Source of the DNA: a virus
Virus record (IMG/VR): IMGVR_UViG_3300020411_000011
Span: 1-21,541 of that record
Strand: one strand, 5' to 3'
Length of the DNA stretch: 21,541 nt
The notes under the pieces are model-generated. The model ran no database searches. It saw nothing but the letters and a program-made list of their open reading frames with translations, and was not told where the DNA came from. Position 1 is the first letter of the stretch, and every line of letters starts with the position of its first letter. Positions 1,085-20,993 of this stretch are shown here, piece after piece. The position numbers were made by a program, and so were the translations under genes.

Positions 1085-1167
1085 TATGCCCCACAGTTCT
1101 CACATTCATCAGGACACTTACAATCTGCTTTTGTTTCAGCACCACAATCAGGACAAGGATTAATCAT
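1084..1167 (-). CDS. Six-cysteine zinc-ribbon-like microprotein (27 aa)
   Basis: A complete 27-codon reading frame runs from ATG (1167-1165) to TAG (1086-1084). It has six cysteines at residues 5, 8, 16, 18, 22 and 25: a CxxC pair near the start (CPDCG), a CxC in the middle and a CxxC-like pair near the end (CENCG). The spacing looks like a miniature zinc ribbon or other metal-binding knuckle. The ATG overlaps the TAA stop of fibre gene 1167-1634 by one base (TAATG), and its own stop overlaps the GTG start of the next gene by one base (TAGTG). Without this frame there would be an 82-base hole in an otherwise seamless gene chain. No ribosome binding site is visible, so expression probably depends on coupling. 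Function unknown; metal binding is inferred. Confidence 0.65.
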   Translation of the reverse strand: MINPCPDCGAETKADCKCPDECENCGA

Positions 1168-1634
1168 TAGTCTGTTAAAGGAAAAAAGAAAGATAATCTT
1201 AAATAGTAGGCACCATCCCCACTATTACTTGGACTTCCAACTTTTATATTCCCATTACTTTCTACATATATTACATCAGTTGAATCTGCTTGATAACCAA
1301 TACTACTTGCAACATATTTTGTTGATGCTGGTCTATAACCACTAGGTAAAGTTCCAACTACCATATTGTTATCTGGTGTAGAACTTCTTGAACAATGGCA
1401 TATAACATAAACTACATTTTGCATTTTCCAAACTATGTTTCTAGTATTACCAGTTCCTTGAGCAGAATAACTATTATCAAAAGTTATATTAGTAAATGTT
1501 GTAGCTGTTTCTGCATTATTAAAACCAGATGTTAAAGCTGTGCCACCATTAGCTACTGGTAAAGTGCCTGTAACTTTAGCTGTTAAATCAATACTCCCTG
1601 CTAGACCTGCGTTTTTTACTGTTGTTAATGCCAT
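1167..1634 (-). CDS. Short tail fibre / adhesin protein, NGGT-type N-terminus (155 aa)
   Basis: Fibre-like protein. Residues 1-40 carry a motif common in phage fibres, GTLPVANGGTALTSGF, which is nearly the same as in gene 4652-5209 and probably docks or folds against other fibre proteins. Residues 85-155 contain TLPSGYRP and a small-residue, beta-rich end (SNGNIKV, YYLRLSFFFPL), like the head domains that close many phage fibre proteins. The protein is short for a complete fibre and may be a tip subunit. It starts one base after the stop of gene 1636-1941 with an AAGGAAG ribosome binding site upstream, and its stop overlaps the six-cysteine microprotein. Two cysteines near residue 79-81 are unusual for this set. 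The ligand is unknown. Confidence 0.75.
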   Translation of the reverse strand: MALTTVKNAGLAGSIDLTAKVTGTLPVANGGTALTSGFNNAETATTFTNITFDNSYSAQGTGNTRNIVWKMQNVVYVICHCSRSSTPDNNMVVGTLPSGYRPASTKYVASSIGYQADSTDVIYVESNGNIKVGSPSNSGDGAYYLRLSFFFPLTD

Positions 1635-1635
1635 G

Positions 1636-1941
1636 TTATGCTTCCTTTGGTATATCTGATTTTACTTTAGCAATAGCATCTTTCCAATTTGTTGTACCAT
1701 TCACATTATCCCAATATTGCATATCTAATTGTTCTTGTATTGAAGGGTATGCTTCTGCTCTGTCTCTTTGATATTTATTGTTATCATATGCTGTTTGTAA
1801 TTCTGCCATTTTTGTTTTTATATCTGCTCTTGATATTTCTGAAGAACTCCAAGTTAACACAGCCGTATCAATATCTTCTCCAACAACTGATACTTGTGCT
1901 TTTTCATCAATTTTTAAAATTGCTTCTATAATAGTTATCAT
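1636..1941 (-). CDS. Fibre-associated small protein, QLD-type (101 aa)
   Basis: Small soluble protein, not a fibre by composition. The second half has the pattern YQRDRAEAYPSIQEQLDMQY followed by a DNxxGTTxW block and AIAKVKSDIPK, which I recall as recurring next to tail fibre genes in marine phages. Gene 2466-2795 ends in a related pattern (EYGDIGDQLDEIYKD, ITAIKDANPK), so the two are probably paralogues. The role is not known to me; a fibre chaperone or small structural linker is a reasonable inference from the constant fibre neighbourhood. The ATG at 1941 overlaps the preceding gene by four bases (ATGA) and has a good GGAGG ribosome binding site seven bases upstream, inside the end of gene 1938-2462. 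Confidence 0.75.
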   Translation of the reverse strand: MITIIEAILKIDEKAQVSVVGEDIDTAVLTWSSSEISRADIKTKMAELQTAYDNNKYQRDRAEAYPSIQEQLDMQYWDNVNGTTNWKDAIAKVKSDIPKEA

Positions 1942-2462
1942 GCTGCAACCTCCATCAAAATTATATTTGATTGATTACCATTTTGTTGTGATTTAACTGT
2001 TGAACTTGATTCTGGTTTCATTTGGCTTTTATATACCAAGCTAGATGTAGAAGAAGGTGTATCTAAAATATTAAAAGCTAACATTGTGCTATGTGCTAAA
2101 TCACTTCCTGTTTGTTGCATATTAATTGTCCAGTTGTTAGGAGTAAATATTGTTGTACTATCTCTTAATACATTTACTTGCGCTCTAGCAAGTGAACTTG
2201 ATCTAGTAATCATAAAATGTTGAGCTACTAAAACAAGAATTTTATTTGATGTGCTGGTAGGAGTAATAGACGCTGTTAATCCTGTATCTGTAAAACTGCC
2301 ACTTGTTGTAGTAGAAACTTCTGTTGTAGTGCTTCCTTGCACAATTTGTAAAATTTTACCTTTACCAATATTATTTGTTGTAAGTGTACCAGAACCATCA
2401 GAAACTAAAAGATTGTTTCCTCCGCTGTCTTGTATTGTATCAACTTTCAGTATTGAACTCAT
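1938..2462 (-). CDS. Short tail fibre / adhesin protein, KVDTI-type N-terminus (174 aa)
   Basis: The N-terminus SSILKVDTIQDSGGNNLL is a frequently seen start of marine phage fibre proteins and is shared in part with gene 2824-3420 (STLKVDTI). Residues 35-174 are beta-rich and Ser/Thr/Asn-rich, with a block FTDTGLTASITPTSTSNKIL that I associate with a small head domain of phage fibres (strand-rich, S-N-K-I-L-V turn) and a closing strand NIILMEVAA. It is likely a short receptor-binding or decoration subunit of the tail fibre assembly. An AAAGG sequence nine bases upstream may serve as ribosome binding site; the gene begins three bases after the stop of 2466-2795. No enzymatic motif is seen. The ligand is unknown. 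Confidence 0.75.
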   Translation of the reverse strand: MSSILKVDTIQDSGGNNLLVSDGSGTLTTNNIGKGKILQIVQGSTTTEVSTTTSGSFTDTGLTASITPTSTSNKILVLVAQHFMITRSSSLARAQVNVLRDSTTIFTPNNWTINMQQTGSDLAHSTMLAFNILDTPSSTSSLVYKSQMKPESSSTVKSQQNGNQSNIILMEVAA

Positions 2463-2465
2463 ATC

Positions 2466-2795
2466 TTAGCCTTTTGGGTTAGCGTCTTTGATAGCTGTAA
2501 TTCTAGCCTTCCAAGCGTCTATATCTTTATAGATCTCATCAAGCTGATCACCAATGTCACCATACTCTGCTTTACGAGTAGCTCTAACCTGATTGTTAGA
2601 TTCCTCTGTATTACCAGCAGATTCATAACTAGCTAGTTGTTCATCAGTTGGTTTATTTAAACCATCGATACTCCAGCTCTTTATGTATGGCCCATTACCA
2701 TCGCTGTCGTCTTGTAAAATAACATTGTTTCCGAAATCTGCAACCTTACTGTTGGCTTCACAATACAATTTTACTTTCGTAGATAATTGTGCCAT
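2466..2795 (-). CDS. Fibre-associated small protein, QLD-type (109 aa)
   Basis: Non-fibre small protein with two parts. Residues 1-60 include LYCEAN, a DDSDGNGPYIKSW block and LNKPTDEQLASYE; residues 70-109 carry RKAEYGDIGDQLDEIYKD and ITAIKDANPK. The second part parallels the C-terminal half of gene 1636-1941, and the KPT-x-E/Q segment parallels gene 4462-4650, so at least three of the interleaved small genes look related. Function is unknown; chaperone or linker for the adjacent fibres is inference. It is one of the few fibre-region genes with free space in front (28 bases) and has a very strong ribosome binding site, AGGAGGTG, suggesting high expression on its own. Confidence 0.75.
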   Translation of the reverse strand: MAQLSTKVKLYCEANSKVADFGNNVILQDDSDGNGPYIKSWSIDGLNKPTDEQLASYESAGNTEESNNQVRATRKAEYGDIGDQLDEIYKDIDAWKARITAIKDANPKG

Positions 2796-2823
2796 TATGC
2801 ACCTCCTCTATTTATTGTTAAAC

Positions 2824-3420
2824 TCATTCTATTATTTTAAAACCTCCAAATTGAGAATATCTTCCATTACCTGTGCCATACATATTCCAACTACCGCCAT
2901 CAGTATCCATTCTGCAATAAACACCTACTGTATCGTTAGCACTTAAACTTTTAATACCCATAACATTAATATCAAACCTGTTAGCATCAGCATCAGTACT
3001 ATTAAATTTATAAAAAGTTAGTGCTGTTCCATCATTTGAACTATTGTGTGACAATCCAATAGTGAATGTACTTCCAACAGAAGAACCTCCTCCATCAACA
3101 TTTTGAATAGCGTAAAAAAAATATTTTCCTGCTGATGGTGCTGTAAATAATCCTGTTGAAGTATCATAAGCATTATTAGAGTCATATATTTCGCTATTAA
3201 AAATTCTTTTAGTTTCTGTGTTGTCTGATAAACTGCTTTGGTCACTTGTTCCATGTGCAAGAAATGTTGGTGTCATATTTCCACCAACCCCTGTTTGTGT
3301 TGCATTAGATAAATCCATTGTTGCACCTGAAGGCACAGAAATTGTATCGCCAGATTGTCCAAGTGTGATTGTACCTGTTCCTGTTCTTTTTAATATTGTA
3401 TCTACTTTTAATGTACTCAT
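2824..3420 (-). CDS. Tail fibre protein with C1q-like head (198 aa)
   Basis: Residues 1-40 form a docking-type N-terminus (STLKVDTI, then SGDTISVPSGAT, the latter shared almost exactly with gene 3417-4019). From about residue 50 the sequence follows the C1q/TNF-like jelly-roll pattern: FLAHGTSDQ, KRIFNSEIYDSNNAYD, then the hallmark STGLFTAPSAGKYFFYAI, LSANDTVGVY and a terminal GRYSQFGGFKII. In eukaryotic C1q and in phage or bacterial relatives this fold makes trimers that bind surface ligands, so this is a probable trimeric receptor-binding head. The gene overlaps its upstream neighbour by four bases (ATGA) and lacks its own strong ribosome binding site. Family assignment is by recalled pattern only. 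Confidence 0.75.
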   Translation of the reverse strand: MSTLKVDTILKRTGTGTITLGQSGDTISVPSGATMDLSNATQTGVGGNMTPTFLAHGTSDQSSLSDNTETKRIFNSEIYDSNNAYDTSTGLFTAPSAGKYFFYAIQNVDGGGSSVGSTFTIGLSHNSSNDGTALTFYKFNSTDADANRFDINVMGIKSLSANDTVGVYCRMDTDGGSWNMYGTGNGRYSQFGGFKIIE

Positions 3421-4019
3421 GTTATTATTTTATGCCCCCAAAATGCTGAATAATCATTTCTAGCGTTTGCATTAGAACTATCATTGTGACCTTGTTGTCC
3501 ATAAACTTCAACATAGTCTCCTGCGTTTAAATAAAGTATAAAACTTGTACTTGTCATAATATTTCTATGACCAGAAGAAGAGCCATTATTATAATGGTCA
3601 AATACATTTGAGCCACCTCCACTTACATTTATGTCACTTCCATTTAATTTAAACTTTAACCAAGCAATCATTTGTTTACTGTTAGCACTAGCTTCAAAAC
3701 AAATTTTAGCACCAATTTGATAATAACCAGTTTTTCCACTTGGCACAGTCATACGATAATTTGTTGAAGGATCATAACAACTTCCAATATCATAAACCTC
3801 TTTATCAAATTCTAATTTTGTCATAACTTCATGGCTTAAACTTTGATTTCCATTTAAACAAGCAAACCATAAAACATCTGAAACTGCACCAAAACCTGTT
3901 GCAGTACCAGAATTTGTTATTGTTGCTCCACTAGGAATTGTAATCGTATCGCCAGAGTCTCCAACTTGTAAAGCTGTGCCAGAACTCGGACTTAATTTAT
4001 TTGCTTGTATTTCACTCAT
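3417..4019 (-). CDS. Tail fibre protein with diverged C1q-like head (200 aa)
   Basis: The N-terminus has SGDTITIPSGAT at about residues 23-34, matching the start of the next gene (2824-3420) at protein and DNA level. The body looks like a diverged C1q-like jelly roll: KLEFDKEVYDIGSCYDPS, then a TVPSGKTGYYQIGA strand pair in the place of the usual FTAPxxGxYxF, LNAGDYVEVYGQQGH, and the closing SAFWGHKII. It is therefore probably a second trimeric receptor-binding head arisen by duplication and divergence. It overlaps 4016-4465 by four bases and 2824-3420 by four bases, so translation is likely coupled along the chain. The ligand is unknown and the domain call less sure than for 2824-3420. Confidence 0.7.
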   Translation of the reverse strand: MSEIQANKLSPSSGTALQVGDSGDTITIPSGATITNSGTATGFGAVSDVLWFACLNGNQSLSHEVMTKLEFDKEVYDIGSCYDPSTNYRMTVPSGKTGYYQIGAKICFEASANSKQMIAWLKFKLNGSDINVSGGGSNVFDHYNNGSSSGHRNIMTSTSFILYLNAGDYVEVYGQQGHNDSSNANARNDYSAFWGHKIIT

Positions 4020-4465
4020 AATATAACCATAGTTGAAGAAGCTGGTATTGTCAAAGTACCAGTTACAGTTATAGGCCCAGCCACTAAAGCATTACGACCA
4101 CTTGTTATTGTTATATCAGCATAGCTAGTAGGATTTTCCATATAATAGGTACTAGATAGTTTACTAGCAGCTACTGTTCCATCTGAAGGTGTACCTGTAT
4201 CTACGCTTTCACCCATAGCTATAATAAAATCTATATCCCCACTTGCAACACTGACGCCATTAAAATCAATGGTAGACCCTGAAACCGTATATGCGGTTAC
4301 TGGCTCTTGAATAACACCATTAATAGACACCATTAAATTTTGTGCAGCACTAGGATCATAGTTAGCTGAATTGTGTTGTAATGTATAACTTGTCGCAGGT
4401 GTACTTCCTGATACTGATAGGATTTTTCTGTCACCTATATTTAAATCTCGGCCTATATAACTCAT
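4016..4465 (-). CDS. Fibre or adaptor protein, MSYIG-type N-terminus (149 aa)
   Basis: Starts MSYIGRDLNIGDR, the same opening as gene 5394-6845 (MSYIG). Residues 25-85 carry a small beta domain with LMVSINGVIQEP, YTVSGSTIDF and a strand DFIIAMGE, comparable to the VWVNGVKQDYTNYSVS block of 5394-6845; this looks like a conserved fibre docking domain. It then has SDGTVAASKLSS, a linker often found before fibre shafts, and a short end with SGRNALVAGPITVTGTLTIP, which resembles the small C-terminal domain of marine phage fibre proteins. It may be a connector that brings a head onto the fibre rather than a head itself. It overlaps its neighbours on both sides by four bases. Confidence 0.7.
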   Translation of the reverse strand: MSYIGRDLNIGDRKILSVSGSTPATSYTLQHNSANYDPSAAQNLMVSINGVIQEPVTAYTVSGSTIDFNGVSVASGDIDFIIAMGESVDTGTPSDGTVAASKLSSTYYMENPTSYADITITSGRNALVAGPITVTGTLTIPASSTMVIL

Positions 4466-4650
4466 GTATTATCGCTATCCCAAGCGTCTTGTAATGCTTT
4501 TAATCCATCAGTACATTCTTTCTCAGTAGGTTTACTTCCACCATCATGTACTATTAAGTTAGCATAAATTTTATTTTTACTGTCTGACCAACCAAACCAT
4601 TGACCTTTTCTAACATTTACTAAATAATCTTCTATATGTTCTGGTCTCAT
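4462..4650 (-). CDS. Fibre-associated small protein (62 aa)
   Basis: Very small soluble protein of unknown function. Features seen are DYLVNVRKGQWFGWSD near the start and HDGGSKPTEKECTDGLKALQ near the end, where the KPT-x-E segment resembles the middle of gene 2466-2795. The compact acidic and aromatic composition differs clearly from the Ser/Thr/Asn-rich fibre genes on both sides, as in the other interleaved small genes. It begins one base after the stop of 4652-5209 and has an AGGAGC ribosome binding site about ten bases upstream; it overlaps the next gene by four bases. A fibre chaperone or linker role is inferred only from position. Confidence 0.65.
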   Translation of the reverse strand: MRPEHIEDYLVNVRKGQWFGWSDSKNKIYANLIVHDGGSKPTEKECTDGLKALQDAWDSDNT

Positions 4651-4651
4651 T

Positions 4652-5209
4652 TTACGTTGCTCCTAATTTCATAAACATAGCGTATGTGCCATTTTGATTT
4701 GAGTCAGTTTGAACATAATGATTGTTGTCTTGACTCGTAGTATTAAAACGAACTTTTTGATTACTTGTATCAGTAATATCAAATAATTTTTTAACACTAC
4801 ACATTTGATAAGTAGCATTATTTTTAATACTGGCATAAGCAAAAGCAGCATTATTATAATCACTATTATTTGTTGTGTATTGAATTTGTGCTAAAATATA
4901 ATCATTATCAGCCGCACCTGAACTAAATTGCATATTAAAAGTTACTAAATAATATCCAGTAGAAGGAAAAGTAAATATACCACTAGATTGACTCATACCA
5001 GTACCAATATAACCATTTAAATCTGTATCGTCTCTTTCCCAGTTAGACGCAATAGGTGTAGTATTTCCTTGAAAGTTACTTGTTACTCTCCATGTGTCAA
5101 CTTCGGTAAGACTACCTCCATTAACAAAACCAGAAGTTAAACCTGTTCCACCATTAGCTACTCCAAGTGTACCTGATTGTTTTGATAAATCCAAAGTTGT
5201 AAAAGGCAT
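4652..5209 (-). CDS. Tail fibre protein with C1q-like head, NGGT-type N-terminus (185 aa)
   Basis: Residues 1-30 contain SGTLGVANGGTGLTSGF, almost identical to the start of gene 1167-1634. Residues 45-185 read as a C1q/TNF-like head: WERDDTDLNGYIGTGMSQSS, the signature SGIFTFPSTGYYLVTFNMQF, a QIQYTTNN strand, and an ending TYAMFMKLG typical of the last strand of such domains. A trimeric receptor-binding head is therefore likely. The ATG at 5209 overlaps the stop of 5209-5394 by one base, with a good AGGAGAG ribosome binding site inside that gene. This makes a third C1q-type gene within 2.4 kb, each with a different N-terminal docking type or a diverged body. Confidence 0.75.
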   Translation of the reverse strand: MPFTTLDLSKQSGTLGVANGGTGLTSGFVNGGSLTEVDTWRVTSNFQGNTTPIASNWERDDTDLNGYIGTGMSQSSGIFTFPSTGYYLVTFNMQFSSGAADNDYILAQIQYTTNNSDYNNAAFAYASIKNNATYQMCSVKKLFDITDTSNQKVRFNTTSQDNNHYVQTDSNQNGTYAMFMKLGAT

Positions 5210-5394
5210 TATTCACTCTCCTGTATTGTATTACCATCTGCTACCCATTGAAGAATATTTTGATAGTCTGTGTTTTCATTATCTATTGGAACTGATAAAA
5301 TTTTAGTTGTGTTACCTTCACTTGGATAAGTAACTTTTACTGAAATATTAACACCATCCCTTGCAATATATTTTAAAGTACAATTTTCAAACAT
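5209..5394 (-). CDS. Fibre-associated small protein (61 aa)
   Basis: Short protein with a beta-like first half (CTLKYIARDGVNISVKVTYP) and a C-terminal block ENTDYQNILQWVADGNTIQE. The latter pattern (E-N-T-D-Y then W-x-x-x-G-N-T-I) recurs, to my recollection, in small phage proteins encoded beside tail fibres. Its role is unknown to me. It overlaps both neighbours by one base (TAATG junctions) and has GGAG six bases before its start, inside the end of the 5394-6845 gene. It could be a fibre assembly helper or a small virion component; nothing in the sequence decides between them. Confidence 0.65.
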   Translation of the reverse strand: MFENCTLKYIARDGVNISVKVTYPSEGNTTKILSVPIDNENTDYQNILQWVADGNTIQESE

Positions 5395-6845
5395 TATAAC
5401 TCCGCTGTATAAGATATTTTAGATGAAGAATTATTTGTATACATAATTCCTCCATCACCTGAATTTGAACTCATAGAGGTAAATAGTAATTGAGTACCAT
5501 TAAGCATTGCTCTATCAATAGATACATTACTTCCTGTTACACTTTCTACATTACCATCTTCTCCATGACTATAATAATTACTTCCAGTATTTATTTCTAA
5601 AGTAGGTGCTGTTCTCATTGTTGTTGGAAAATTGTGCATCACTACAACTTCATTTGAATTATAGGAAGCTGCTATGCCTAGCATTTTATTACTACCTTCT
5701 ACATAATTTAAATAATATCTCTGACACCTAGCTAAATTATCTCCATAACTTTCATGTTGGAAAGGTGGTAAAGTAGAAGAAGTATATTCGCCTACTTCTA
5801 ATTGTATTCCTGTAATTGCCCAGTCATTCGCTGTGTTATCTTGAATATTTAAAGTACCACCAGCATTTACTTTAGTATTATCTTGTGCTTCCCAAGTACC
5901 ATGATTTGCTGTACCACTATCATAGTTACTACCACTATCTAACCACCAATTTATATTTAAACTTTTTCCGTTATCATCATCAAAAGCACCTGTCGTATCT
6001 GCACCAAATACACAAACCTTATGTTCCCATGTATTTGCACTAGAAATTGTATAGGATTGTGTGCATTGTCTATTTGAATTATCTTTATCTTTGAGTTGAA
6101 TATTTCCAGTACCTGTTTTACTTGATTTAACCCAAAAAGCTAAAGTAAACTTTTCTGCATTAGATGTACCTTTTTTAAATACTTGTAAATCTTGACCTTC
6201 TAAATTGTATTGTAAATACATATAATCGCTTGCGGCAGGAGAAGCATCAGCTACTGCACAATCTACTCTCCATGCGTTTCTAAAACCATTATCAAAAGCA
6301 TTACCACTCGTTAAACTTTCTTGTTGTAGTCTACCTTCTCCCATAGAAGAAATTGCAAAATACATTCTATCAACTCTGTAATAACCACCACTACTTTCAT
6401 CTGTTGCTGAAGTACCTCTTTGTGATACGGCACAATTTCCATTTATAATTAATGGCTTTGCATTAGGTCTTAAACTTGGAACTACACCACTAGCAATTTT
6501 ACCAGAGGTTACAGCACCATCATTTATTTTAGCTGTGGTTACTGCATCATCTTGTAAAGCACTTGTTCCAACACTTGCATCATTAGGAACTACTGAACCA
6601 TATGTTCTTCCAAGATAAGCTACTTCTACTATATCACTAGATACTAGAGTACCTCCTAAAGTTAAGGTAGTACTGGAAACAGAATAATTTGTATAATCCT
6701 GTTTGACCCCATTTACCCAAACTAAAATATCATTAACTGAACTAACAGCATAAGAAAGAGTAACAGTCGTACCAGTCGTACTGGTAAATCTATCTTTCCT
6801 TACGCTGTCATAAGCAGTTTTAGGTTTTACTCCAATATAACTCAT
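5394..6845 (-). CDS. Tail fibre protein with carbohydrate-binding-type domain (483 aa)
   Basis: Largest of the downstream fibre genes. Residues 1-80: docking domain starting MSYIGVKPKTAYDS with VWVNGVKQDYTNYSV. Residues 95-125: a short repetitive shaft (DDAVTTAKINDGAVTSGKI). From about 127 to 375: a domain pattern known from many phage fibres, with NGNCAVSQRGTS, YYRVDRMYF, LAFWVKSSKTG, W-x-HKVCVF, WAITGIQLEVGEYTSS, FQHESYGDNLARCQRYY; these resemble jelly-roll carbohydrate-binding modules. The last 100 residues include FPTTMRTAPTLEI, a usual C-terminal element. It should bind cell-surface glycans. It starts two bases after the stop of 6847-7170 and has no strong ribosome binding site, so coupling is likely. 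Confidence 0.85.
   Translation of the reverse strand: MSYIGVKPKTAYDSVRKDRFTSTTGTTVTLSYAVSSVNDILVWVNGVKQDYTNYSVSSTTLTLGGTLVSSDIVEVAYLGRTYGSVVPNDASVGTSALQDDAVTTAKINDGAVTSGKIASGVVPSLRPNAKPLIINGNCAVSQRGTSATDESSGGYYRVDRMYFAISSMGEGRLQQESLTSGNAFDNGFRNAWRVDCAVADASPAASDYMYLQYNLEGQDLQVFKKGTSNAEKFTLAFWVKSSKTGTGNIQLKDKDNSNRQCTQSYTISSANTWEHKVCVFGADTTGAFDDDNGKSLNINWWLDSGSNYDSGTANHGTWEAQDNTKVNAGGTLNIQDNTANDWAITGIQLEVGEYTSSTLPPFQHESYGDNLARCQRYYLNYVEGSNKMLGIAASYNSNEVVVMHNFPTTMRTAPTLEINTGSNYYSHGEDGNVESVTGSNVSIDRAMLNGTQLLFTSMSSNSGDGGIMYTNNSSSKISYTAEL
6764..6786. repeat. Tandem 9-bp repeat overlapping a 7-bp-stem palindrome
   Basis: CAGTCGTAC occurs twice in tandem (6764-6772 and 6773-6781), and TACCAGT-CGT-ACTGGTA (6770-6786) forms a perfect inverted repeat with a three-base loop. 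It lies about 60-80 bases inside the 5' end of fibre gene 5394-6845 and encodes a Ser/Thr/Gly-rich stretch, so biased composition may explain it. Confidence 0.4.
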
Positions 6846-6846
6846 C

Positions 6847-7170
6847 TTATGAACTTATTGCGTCTACGACAGAAACCCAAGCGTCTACACTTGAAGCTGT
6901 GTCAGATTTTACTTTTAATGCGTCACTGTTTTGCACTACTACTTTTCCTGTTCCTAATACTTGTAAAGCTCCGCCAGTTGCTATTGGAGCTCCTTTAACT
7001 AGGTAAATATCATTTGATCCATCATTAATATATACATCAACATTAATAGCTGCTGTATGAACATTAGTAACATGAATACCTACCACAGTATCATAGGAAT
7101 TAGCAGTGAACACAGTAGCCGCACTTGTACCTACATTGTTAGAGGTAAATCGTCTAAAATTCTGTGCCAT
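6847..7170 (-). CDS. Small beta-rich virion protein, fibre or neck associated (107 aa)
   Basis: The protein reads as a compact beta sandwich: FTSNNVGTSAATVFTA, VVGIHVTNVHTAAINVDVYI, IYLVKGAPIATGGALQVLG, GKVVVQNSDALKVKSD and a final strand VDAWVSVVDA. This pattern is familiar from small structural proteins found beside tail or neck genes in many marine phages, including myoviruses; no biochemical role is established as far as I know. It follows the gp17-like fibre by nine bases, with a strong AAGGAGA ribosome binding site, and precedes the large fibre gene by one base. A role as a small collar, linker or decoration protein at the fibre base is inferred from its place between two fibre genes. 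Confidence 0.75.
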   Translation of the reverse strand: MAQNFRRFTSNNVGTSAATVFTANSYDTVVGIHVTNVHTAAINVDVYINDGSNDIYLVKGAPIATGGALQVLGTGKVVVQNSDALKVKSDTASSVDAWVSVVDAISS

Positions 7171-7179
7171 TATATCTCC

Positions 7180-8580
7180 TTATAAAGCTACACTCATGGC
7201 GATTGCAAAACCAGCAGAAGCAAAACTACTTGCATCTACTGCGGCAGTTTGCCATGAACTGCCATTGTAAACTTTTAATTCGTTAGCTGAAGTGTTAAAA
7301 TACAAATCACCAGTTGTCAATGCATCACCATCATTGTCTGCACTAGGATCAGATGATTTAGCACCTAAGTATGTATCATCAAAATTATCGGCTGCTGCCT
7401 CTGCTGCTGCTTGAGCAGTTTGAGCCGCAGTTGCAGATGTTGCTGCATTGGTAGCTTGTGTACTAGCTGTTGTTGCGGATGAAGCCGCATTGGTTGCTGA
7501 AGTTGCAGCCTCACTAGCTTTCGTTGTTGCTGTCGTTGCATGACCAGAAGCAGTAGTCGCAGAACTAGCTGCCGCAGTAGCACTAGAAGCGGCATTCGTT
7601 GCCGAGGTACTTGCTTCACTTGCTTTGGTAGTAGCTGTAGTAGCAGAAGCCGCTGCATTTGTTGCAGAAGTACTAGCCTCAGATGCTTTAGTCGTTGCAG
7701 TAGTTGCAGAGCTAGCGGCTGAAGTTGCCGAACTTGCAGCATTAGTTGCTTGAGTAGAAGCAGTAGTAGCTGAACTTGCCGCAGCAGTTTCTGAACTTGC
7801 TGCCGCTGTAGCAGAACTAGCTGCCGCTGTTGCTGATGATGCTGCCGCTGAAGCACTAGACGCTGCCGCACTTGCTGAAGTCGCTGCTGCTGCCGCATCT
7901 ACTAATAAATCCCATTTAGCTACATCTGTGTTTGATGAAATTGGTTGCGATCCACTTGAGGTATGATTGGTATTACAAAGATATATATTATTATTGGAAG
8001 TATCTTTGATAATATCCCTCTGAACATATGCAGTACTTGTTGCCCAGTTACCTCTGTAGTTACCTATTTCTTGTGAAAATTCTAATCCATTTCCAGCACT
8101 GTTTACCGTTAGTAGCTTATTTGCGACCAACTCTGGAAATGTTAAACCATAAGCTGTACTTGTTGATGATTTAGATTTTACTGTATAATTGAAATCTCTT
8201 TCATTCTGTTGCATCATAGCAACAATTTTATCTAATTCTGTATTAAGTGTTTCTATTGGGAATTGACCTGAAGCTGGAAAGTCAGTACTTCTAGCTATAG
8301 GTAAATCTCTGTAAATTGTATATTTGTCATTTACAGTAGCACCAGAACCAAGGGTTATAGAACCTCCACCAGTTTCTCCAGCACCAGATACAGAGTATTG
8401 AGTAACGCCACTAGGACTAGAAGCATAGGTTAATGTAGTATCTACACCACCAGCATTAGTATTAATTACCTTAATATCTGTGGCATTAAAAAACTCAAAA
8501 GGAACTGTAAAAGAAGTTTGCGAAGCTGTAGCAGTATATTGTACTCTAGGAGAAGTATCTGATATTGTAATAGATGCCAT
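7180..8580 (-). CDS. T7 gp17-like tail fibre, shaft protein with N-terminal tail-docking domain (466 aa)
   Basis: Residues 1-150 match the pattern of the T7 tail-fibre N-terminal domain that attaches to the tail: YTATASQTSFTVPFEFFNAT, YSVSGAGETGGGSITL, YTIYRDLPIARSTDFPASGQ and LDKIVAMMQQNERDF. Residues 173-225 (YRGNWATSTAYVQRDI, IYLCNTNH, KWDLL) look like a small carbohydrate-binding-type module. Residues 233-400 are 24 uninterrupted heptads of Ala/Ser/Thr. The last 65 residues contain YLGAKSSDPSADNDGDALTT and LYFNTSANELKVYNGSSWQT, a common closing element, with no knob domain. So it probably forms the proximal fibre and shaft, with tips supplied by downstream genes. TAATG overlap joins it to the gp16-like gene; a weak AAGG precedes the start. 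Confidence 0.88.
   Translation of the reverse strand: MASITISDTSPRVQYTATASQTSFTVPFEFFNATDIKVINTNAGGVDTTLTYASSPSGVTQYSVSGAGETGGGSITLGSGATVNDKYTIYRDLPIARSTDFPASGQFPIETLNTELDKIVAMMQQNERDFNYTVKSKSSTSTAYGLTFPELVANKLLTVNSAGNGLEFSQEIGNYRGNWATSTAYVQRDIIKDTSNNNIYLCNTNHTSSGSQPISSNTDVAKWDLLVDAAAAATSASAAASSASAAASSATAAASSATAAASSETAAASSATTASTQATNAASSATSAASSATTATTKASEASTSATNAAASATTATTKASEASTSATNAASSATAAASSATTASGHATTATTKASEAATSATNAASSATTASTQATNAATSATAAQTAQAAAEAAADNFDDTYLGAKSSDPSADNDGDALTTGDLYFNTSANELKVYNGSSWQTAAVDASSFASAGFAIAMSVAL
7381..7884 (-). repeat. 24 tandem 21-bp units coding an alanine-core heptad shaft
   Basis: Within the gp17-like fibre gene, residues 233-400 divide without gaps into 24 seven-residue units such as ASSATAA, STQATNA and TTKASEA. 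Position 7 is alanine in 23 units (the last ends in Phe) and position 4 is alanine in most (exceptions E in one ASSETAA unit, Q in QTAQAAA). Alanine spaced 3 and 4 is the a/d pattern of a coiled coil with a very thin core; other positions are mainly Ser, Thr, Asn, Lys. DNA is visibly richer in G and C than its surroundings. Similar repeats are known from lambda side tail fibres. Confidence 0.85.
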
Positions 8581-20636: not shown

Positions 20637-20993
20637 TCAACGCACATTATGTAGTCTTTGCGTTAATTCTTTTAAAAGAAAAGGATTATCTCTAAAAGCA
20701 GCAGTTAATCCATTAGCAATATTATTAACCACTATTTCTTCTTTTGAATCAGAATCAAGCGGTTGTCCTGATTGTGTTAATCCATAATAATAAGCAATAG
20801 CATGGATTATTTCATGGATAAGCGTACAGCTATAATCTAAATTAGAAAGATTATCTGTTATAACTATACTATTCTTCCTATGATCAAATTCGCCATAGGA
20901 ATCAATTTCATTTTGAAAATTAGATTGTTGGATACCAAGCGTGAGTTCTTGGTATCCTATTTTTATTTTATTGTTTGTTGAAGGTTTTTTCAT
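20637..20993 (-). CDS. Small HExxH zinc metallopeptidase-like protein (118 aa)
   Basis: Residues 60-64 are HEIIH in the context TLIHEIIHAIAYYYGL, followed 21-22 residues later by E85/E86 in SKEEIVVNNIANGLTAAFRD. This is the gluzincin-like layout (HExxH plus a downstream glutamate) of a small phage or prophage protein type in which a DHRKNSIVIT-like strand precedes the motif. The fold is a minimal zinc peptidase domain; substrate and activity are unknown. It overlaps the end of the scaffold gene by 26 bases and precedes the capsid gene, a place where other phages may encode prohead proteases (usually serine proteases). A role in scaffold or capsid processing is therefore a tempting inference, but it could be an unrelated cargo gene. 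There is no clear ribosome binding site. Confidence 0.75.
   Translation of the reverse strand: MKKPSTNNKIKIGYQELTLGIQQSNFQNEIDSYGEFDHRKNSIVITDNLSNLDYSCTLIHEIIHAIAYYYGLTQSGQPLDSDSKEEIVVNNIANGLTAAFRDNPFLLKELTQRLHNVR

Follow-up and report, generated by a model that had tools for sequence, protein, structure and literature searches.

A probable modular receptor-binding array in a marine podovirus, in which the class of small chaperone-like proteins follows the type of the upstream fibre head

Introduction

Phages of the pelagiphage/HTVC010P type carry "metaviromic islands," in which hypervariable C1q and tail fibre genes lie together with XkdW and fibre assembly genes (PMC3909814). Cognate pairs of a fibre and its chaperone are also known (PMC9608196 and PMC10579305), so neither C1q/tail-fibre arrays in pelagiphages nor such pairs are new; in Pam3, the nonconserved N-domain of the chaperone binds the TNF-like head of the fibre, and the conserved C-domain trimerises (PMC9608196). 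Here, we describe a locus in IMG/VR virus record IMGVR_UViG_3300020411_000011, of which positions 1 to 21,541 (21,541 nucleotides [nt]) are called the window below. The locus is a head-to-tail run of 13 genes on the minus strand (8580 to 1167), eight fibre-like and five small, and the source is a marine podovirus that is apparently related to SAR11-infecting phages.

We consider it very likely that these genes form a modular array for receptor binding: a shaft and a jelly-roll protein (BETA) are followed by cassettes of heads and trans-acting chaperones that are exchanged as units. A gp17-like shaft (F1) with no recognisable head would come first, then BETA, then the cassettes, each consisting of at least one small fibre, with a module for attachment at its N-terminus and a head at its C-terminus, and of a folding chaperone specific to the head type. 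The variable N-domain of the chaperone would fit the head, whether C1q, TNF-like, NGDM, SITP, or KLYG, and its helical C-terminal part, if present, would be generic. Recombination in a fibre gene past the N-module would swap head and chaperone together, and heads would therefore change while attachment is kept. The small proteins would fold the heads, the heads would bind receptors, and a virion would bear several of them.

Coupling of small proteins to the upstream head

The relatives compared were 11 annotated isolates, Pelagibacter phage Hodr, and 160 IMG/VR loci recruited by BETA and s109 profiles, and genes were called in 182 loci for the head/chaperone analysis. Heads were clustered by a blind all-against-all phmmer comparison of the C-terminal 120 residues of proteins with 135 amino acids (aa) or more, and small proteins were classified likewise by their first 60 residues; fibres and heads were called from PHROGs and Pfam matches together with this blind clustering with relatives. 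Five main classes of small-protein N-domain occur in the arrays (s109, sEEE, sINP, sNTDY, and sWFG), and after dereplication the class matched the upstream head in 176 of 181 classified pairs: s109 with C1q (65), sEEE with KLYG (36), sINP with SITP (32), sNTDY with NGDM (25), and sWFG with TNF (18), with five pairs off the diagonal. Three of these five were s109 proteins behind a SITP head that was itself preceded by a C1q head. Counted directly, sWFG lay immediately behind a TNF-type head in 20/20 cases and sINP behind a SITP head in 32/34, and sNTDY followed all 29 NGDM heads that have an adjacent gene. There were no mismatches in loci recruited by BETA alone, with chaperones unused (52 matches), or in the isolates and the window (25 matches).

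The coupling has a direction. Mutual information with the upstream head was 2.04 bits (permutation mean, 0.08; maximum, 0.20; 0/5,000), whereas with the downstream gene it was 0.32 bits (permutation mean, 0.16; reached in 8/5,000). The idea that a small protein serves its downstream neighbour was rejected on the basis of this near-random value. The first-pass annotation had suggested that each small protein serves its neighbour; this stands for four of the five (s61, s62, s109, and s101), with the upstream head as the partner, and falls for BETA and for the downstream fibre. The window obeys the code in 4/4 cases, and its 13 genes, in order of transcription, are as follows.

7180-8580, minus strand: F1, 466 aa, gp17-like shaft with a putative fibre-docking domain at the N-terminus and with Ala-rich repeats, ending in GFAIAMSVAL.
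6847-7170, minus strand: BETA, 107 aa, jelly-roll structural protein, judged from predicted structure, fold matches, and position behind the decapeptide shaft.
5394-6845, minus strand: F2, 483 aa, YIG N-module and NGDM-type head (phrog_4492 tail fiber, E 3.9e-40).
5209-5394, minus strand: s61, 61 aa, putative chaperone of class sNTDY, N-terminal domain only; its class goes with NGDM heads, cognate to F2.
4652-5209, minus strand: F3, 185 aa, TNF-like head (TNF cluster; Pfam TNF at 19.3 bits, below the 23-bit cutoff).
4462-4650, minus strand: s62, 62 aa, putative chaperone of class sWFG; its class goes with TNF-type heads, cognate to F3.
4016-4465, minus strand: F4, 149 aa, YIG N-module and short beta C-terminus, no globular head (phrog_18673, E 7.4e-30).
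3417-4019, minus strand: F5, 200 aa, C1q-type head (C1q cluster; Pfam C1q at 18.3 bits, below the 23.7 cutoff).
2824-3420, minus strand: F6, 198 aa, C1q head (Pfam C1q, E 4e-7, above the cutoff; PDB C1q-like 3, E 0.005).
2466-2795, minus strand: s109, 109 aa, putative chaperone of class s109, XkdW-type N-domain and helical C-domain, cognate to C1q heads (Pfam XkdW, E 1.4e-9).
1938-2462, minus strand: F7, 174 aa, SITP-type head (SITP cluster).
1636-1941, minus strand: s101, 101 aa, putative chaperone of class sINP, cognate to F7 (phrog_9114, E 6.4e-26, a family shared with s109).
1167-1634, minus strand: F8, 155 aa, last fibre-like protein of the run, with an LPSGYRP head and no chaperone gene behind it (minor tail protein phrog_3285, E 3.6e-10).

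The weakest fibre assignment is that of F8, made from the phrog_3285 match and an N-module common with F3 only (80% nucleotide identity over 60 nt). Headless YIG proteins resembling F4 number 69 in the locus set, and the C1q and TNF head clusters are mutually related (hhalign, 69%).

Nature of the small proteins

The proteins s61, s62, s109, and s101, each encoded directly downstream of a matching fibre (F6 in the case of s109), look like tail-fibre-assembly-type chaperones for the head of the 5' neighbour, which they would help to fold. The protein s109 matches PF09636 (XkdW) above the cutoff, although XkdW is not itself a proven chaperone, and in a sequence search of the PDB it matched XkdW 2hg7 (E 0.0016). 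Its AF2 model (pLDDT 96.9) has two domains with 2hg7 as the best fold match; the fold search against the PDB gave XkdW alone, at a weak E value (0.23; probability, 0.96), with neither Mu Tfa nor Pam3 gp25 among the matches listed. The protein s101 is also two-domain by sequence, with an N-domain and a C-domain. No Pfam model scored above its cutoff for s61, s62, or s101, and several class members, including an sINP class-mate of s101, carry a C-terminal PF16778 domain (Pfam tail assembly chaperone). C-domains shuffle across the N-domain classes, with sINP having three C-domains or none, and the N-domain types showed no detectable relation to one another in the profile comparisons made, save for a weak match between sINP and sWFG (29%).

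Matching of N-domain to head would be equally expected if the chaperone stayed on the tip, so that head and small protein together formed the receptor-binding unit, as in Mu Tfa; indeed, according to the summary in PMC9608196, virions of Mu retain their chaperone. We regard this arrangement as unlikely, though well worth keeping in mind: for Pam3, a phage with a TNF-like fibre head, mass spectrometry detected the fibre in virions and did not detect the chaperone (PMC9608196). Besides, the ratio of nonsynonymous to synonymous polymorphism (pN/pS), taken from single comparisons with nearest relatives in which synonymous sites were saturated in several cases, was below 1 for all 13 array genes and was lower for the chaperone classes (0.18-0.49) than for the heads (0.67-0.77 for F2, F3, F5, F6, and F7; 0.60 for F8), unlike what a variable binding surface would show. 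The values for F4 and BETA were 0.26 and 0.25, respectively. BETA itself was rejected as a chaperone, being a conserved jelly roll of fixed position that is tied to the shaft rather than to a head type.

Exchange of cassettes

Heads and small proteins are exchanged together. The loci L006 and L007 are 99.3% identical over 3,994 nt, a stretch that runs through the shaft and BETA into the N-module of the fibre behind them; past it, one has a KLYG head with sEEE and the other a C1q head with s109. Besides, one N-module (94-97% over 100 aa) carries three different pairs in L163, L153, and L017, namely, NGDM with sNTDY, SITP with sINP, and TNF with sWFG. The information shared by chaperone and head, given the N-module, was 2.00 bits (0/2,000 permutations), and that shared by chaperone and N-module, given the head, was 0.006 bits (1,445/2,000), with N-module clusters so coarse that they amount to YIG versus other. 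Fibres with a built-in Peptidase_S74 chaperone, two of them Pfam-tested and the others assigned by cluster and C-terminal sequence, were followed by a small chaperone gene in 0/13 cases.

Gene order in phages is commonly conserved, and the downstream coupling is slightly above chance, as it would be if block inheritance alone had kept functionally unlinked heads and small proteins side by side. That explanation seems very improbable to us, given that upstream coupling is near-complete and downstream coupling near-random, that the upstream coupling holds after conditioning on the fibre N-module and through swaps in near-identical backbones, and that S74-bearing heads go without a small gene. 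The suggestion in the first-pass annotation of a modular receptor-binding array is therefore upheld insofar as head modules are exchanged, cassettes are swapped between near-identical phages, and small-protein type follows head type.

A 60-nt direct repeat (80% identical) at window positions 1511-1570 and 5116-5175 corresponds to the N-module common to F8 and F3 (GTL-VANGGT-LTSGF-N) and is a possible recombination seed.

Layout and intactness of the array

The anticipated array of eight fibre-like and five small genes was borne out as one uninterrupted minus-strand run, but two details needed correction. Listed in the direction of transcription, the 12 junctions have gaps or overlaps of +9, +1, -1, -1, +1, -4, -4, -4, +28, +3, -4, and +1 nt, so that overlaps of 1 to 4 bases join the genes at six junctions and gaps of 1 to 28 nt separate them at the others; and fibres alternate with small genes only in part, F4, F5, and F6 being consecutive. 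Shine-Dalgarno matches of at least 4 nt precede 9/13 array starts versus 25/186 internal ATGs; the starts of F4, F5, and F6 lack such a match but lie inside 4-nt overlaps. Every array gene covered by a near-identical contig of 38.7 kb (100% identity over 6.3 kb and 99.4% over 3.9 kb) stays open in it. A like architecture is found in HTVC035P, 203P, 100P, 019P, 010P, 106P, 026P, and 115P, in Hodr, and in Puniceispirillum phage HMO-2011, and because it recurs in isolates, the array is not a chance arrangement. The arrays of relatives are almost uniformly of the form shaft, BETA, and then repeated units of one or more heads and a chaperone; comparison of their gene content showed swapped cassettes of head and small protein.

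Conserved N-modules carrying variable heads would also suit a host-range switch, in which the heads are alternatives selected by inversion or by retroelement mutagenesis. This is highly improbable: the array lacks paired repeats such as inversion requires, no gene for a reverse transcriptase was noticed in the window (a partial genome), and the heads lie in a single translationally coupled run. Switching of the inversion or diversity-generating-retroelement type was accordingly rejected, nothing of it having been found within the window. Hardly credible at all is the reading of the small fibre genes as decayed pieces of one larger fibre, for although their number includes several short ones (149-200 aa) and the headless F4, they are complete open reading frames (ORFs) with mostly Shine-Dalgarno sites or coupled starts, pN/pS is below 1 in 13/13 genes (partly saturated), sizes and order are kept in many isolates, each fibre has its own N-module, and no single fused gene spanning several heads was seen in the relatives' loci examined.

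At window positions 7001-8000, where the shaft has its Ala-rich repeats, GC is 0.44 (about 0.33 for the window), and the long ORFs that other frames show there are probably artefacts of composition. A scan for promoters and terminators gave 49 promoter-like sites versus 35 in shuffled sequences and was not informative. In HTVC010P (L022, 8169-8992), the C1q fibre before s109 is apparently split into ORFs of 216 and 45 aa, either because the gene is broken or because the deposited sequence contains a frameshift.

The label "T7-like" holds only loosely: the capsid matches PF19821, and the nearest isolate is Hodr (capsid identity, 56.5%). Upstream of the capsid gene, a small putative metallopeptidase (20637-20993; below Pfam cutoffs, phrog_1233) is encoded, and a metallophosphoesterase gene starts at the contig edge (3-182).

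Shaft, BETA, and attachment of the fibres

The N-terminus of F1 matches orf22 (18 chains) of the solved phage structure 9efk (phmmer, E 6e-14) and phrog_1640/38058; F1 had no match to PF03906 at E 0.1. Neither a head cluster nor a tip domain was found at its C-terminus, which ends in a decapeptide. This tag, GF[AS][IV]AM[AS][IV]AL or TALAIALG, occurs in 135 of 168 genes preceding BETA versus 4 of 2,432 others, a count that is descriptive because the motif was defined from shaft C-termini already seen, though without use of BETA. The four exceptions are also shafts, and in HTVC100P, L062, and L069 a small endonuclease-like gene lies between shaft and BETA. The 139 tagged genes are shafts of ten N-terminal clusters (several of them singletons and one an incomplete call) and span seven clusters of the segment adjoining the tag upstream. 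BETA genes without a preceding motif are mostly divergent copies (MANIYK and MANSYK types) in other positions, and three are separated from the shaft by an insert.

The AF2 model of BETA is all-beta (pLDDT 93.5), with PDB fold matches to Ena spore-appendage pilins, phage 7-7-1 tail fibres, and the trimeric cement protein of KHP40, all oligomeric jelly rolls; by sequence, no solved structure matched below E 0.29. We infer that BETA docks on the shaft via the decapeptide tag, and we propose it as an adaptor on the shaft tip. A bolder version, which we think possible rather than probable, is that a portable shaft peptide (G-F-x-[IV]-A-M-[AS]-[IV]-A-L) is bound by BETA, perhaps by strand complementation, with BETA serving as the hub for changing separate heads. 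If this is true, tag and BETA would be a generic plug and socket for multiheaded fibres across several unrelated types of marine phage shaft.

Endonuclease VII/HNH-like genes are inserted precisely at the junction of shaft and BETA in HTVC100P (annotated; L019, 8582-8986) and apparently in L062 and L069, as if this boundary were a homing site. Divergent copies of BETA (MANIYK, MANSYK, and MAIEYK types) are found in L030, L046, L057, L125, L163, L172, and others, behind the last chaperone or behind a gene of 52-62 aa elsewhere in the locus.

F2 and F4 carry a YIG N-module, a homologue of the N-domain of T7-type shafts (hhalign, 93.8%, E 1.7e-7; controls, 1.5% or less), and a 149-aa YIG protein of HMO-2011 matches PF03906 just under the cutoff. 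From this homology, YIG fibres could dock at the tail hub, as the shaft does, or on BETA.

Weight of the evidence and implications

Several points weigh against the proposed array of head and chaperone cassettes. The N-modules of F3 and F5-F8 are short and different, and the proposal gives no attachment route for such non-YIG fibres. The proteins s61 and s62 have no helical C-domain and no Pfam match; having an N-domain only, they must, if they are chaperones, act without a trimeriser or borrow one. For 38 of 219 dereplicated small proteins, the upstream head was unclassified or absent, although many of these heads are divergent and, before sEEE and sNTDY, most of the unclassified ones share the C-terminal motif of the class. 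In 11 loci, s109 lies behind a small protein, sSLG, and not directly behind a C1q head. Finally, inheritance can explain shared neighbours, a concern that the swaps and the conditional test lessen but do not remove.

The sSLG class (about 117-122 aa), seen in L112, L113, L116, L118, L123-L125, L128, L132, and L133, is mostly found behind a headless YIG protein and before s109, and it may be an adaptor or a chaperone of a second kind.

The small gene behind a fibre reveals the fold of the head; this provides a reading rule for the most variable region of some of the most abundant ocean phages, and unannotated "hypothetical" genes therefore become assignable. Head and chaperone move as one unit, and the proposed docking of tag and BETA would be a specific, testable interaction. 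To our knowledge, the receptors of SAR11 phages are unknown; knowing the heads and their required helpers is a prerequisite for expression and receptor-binding assays.

Comparison with known systems

In the literature searched, which covered few subscription journals, we found neither the five-type head/chaperone code, its direction, and the pairing of shaft tag with BETA nor virion proteomics of HMO-2011 or pelagiphages. The islands of PMC3909814 are among the closest systems, coming from the same kind of phage with like gene content and hypervariable C1q heads; in the available part of that report, the small genes are not linked to heads and the function of XkdW is listed as unknown, and to this our analysis adds the code, its direction, and co-swapping. 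HMO-2011 (GU557055) likewise has a side tail fibre and then a BETA-type protein, behind which small tail fibre genes, C1q among them, form a long run, but its array is longer, with fibres mostly of 120-175 aa, most of them without a recognised chaperone.

The Pam3 pair gp24/gp25 (PMC9608196) resembles the cassettes in its TNF-like head and in a chaperone with a variable N-domain and a conserved helical C-domain; however, this myocyanophage has a contractile tail with one fibre and one chaperone, whereas several heads and five N-domain types are arranged in arrays here. Alteromonas phages V22 and A5 (PMC10579305) share a fibre and its cognate chaperone as a unit, but this is a single pair, in contrast to the many interchangeable pairs per array. 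Branched receptor-binding systems, such as those of Klebsiella phages phiKp24 and phiK64-1/RaK2 (PMC9700779 and PMC10253068), also produce many receptor-binding proteins from one locus; theirs are large tailspike/depolymerase proteins that dock on one another, whereas the array described here is built of small fibres with chaperones that would act in trans.

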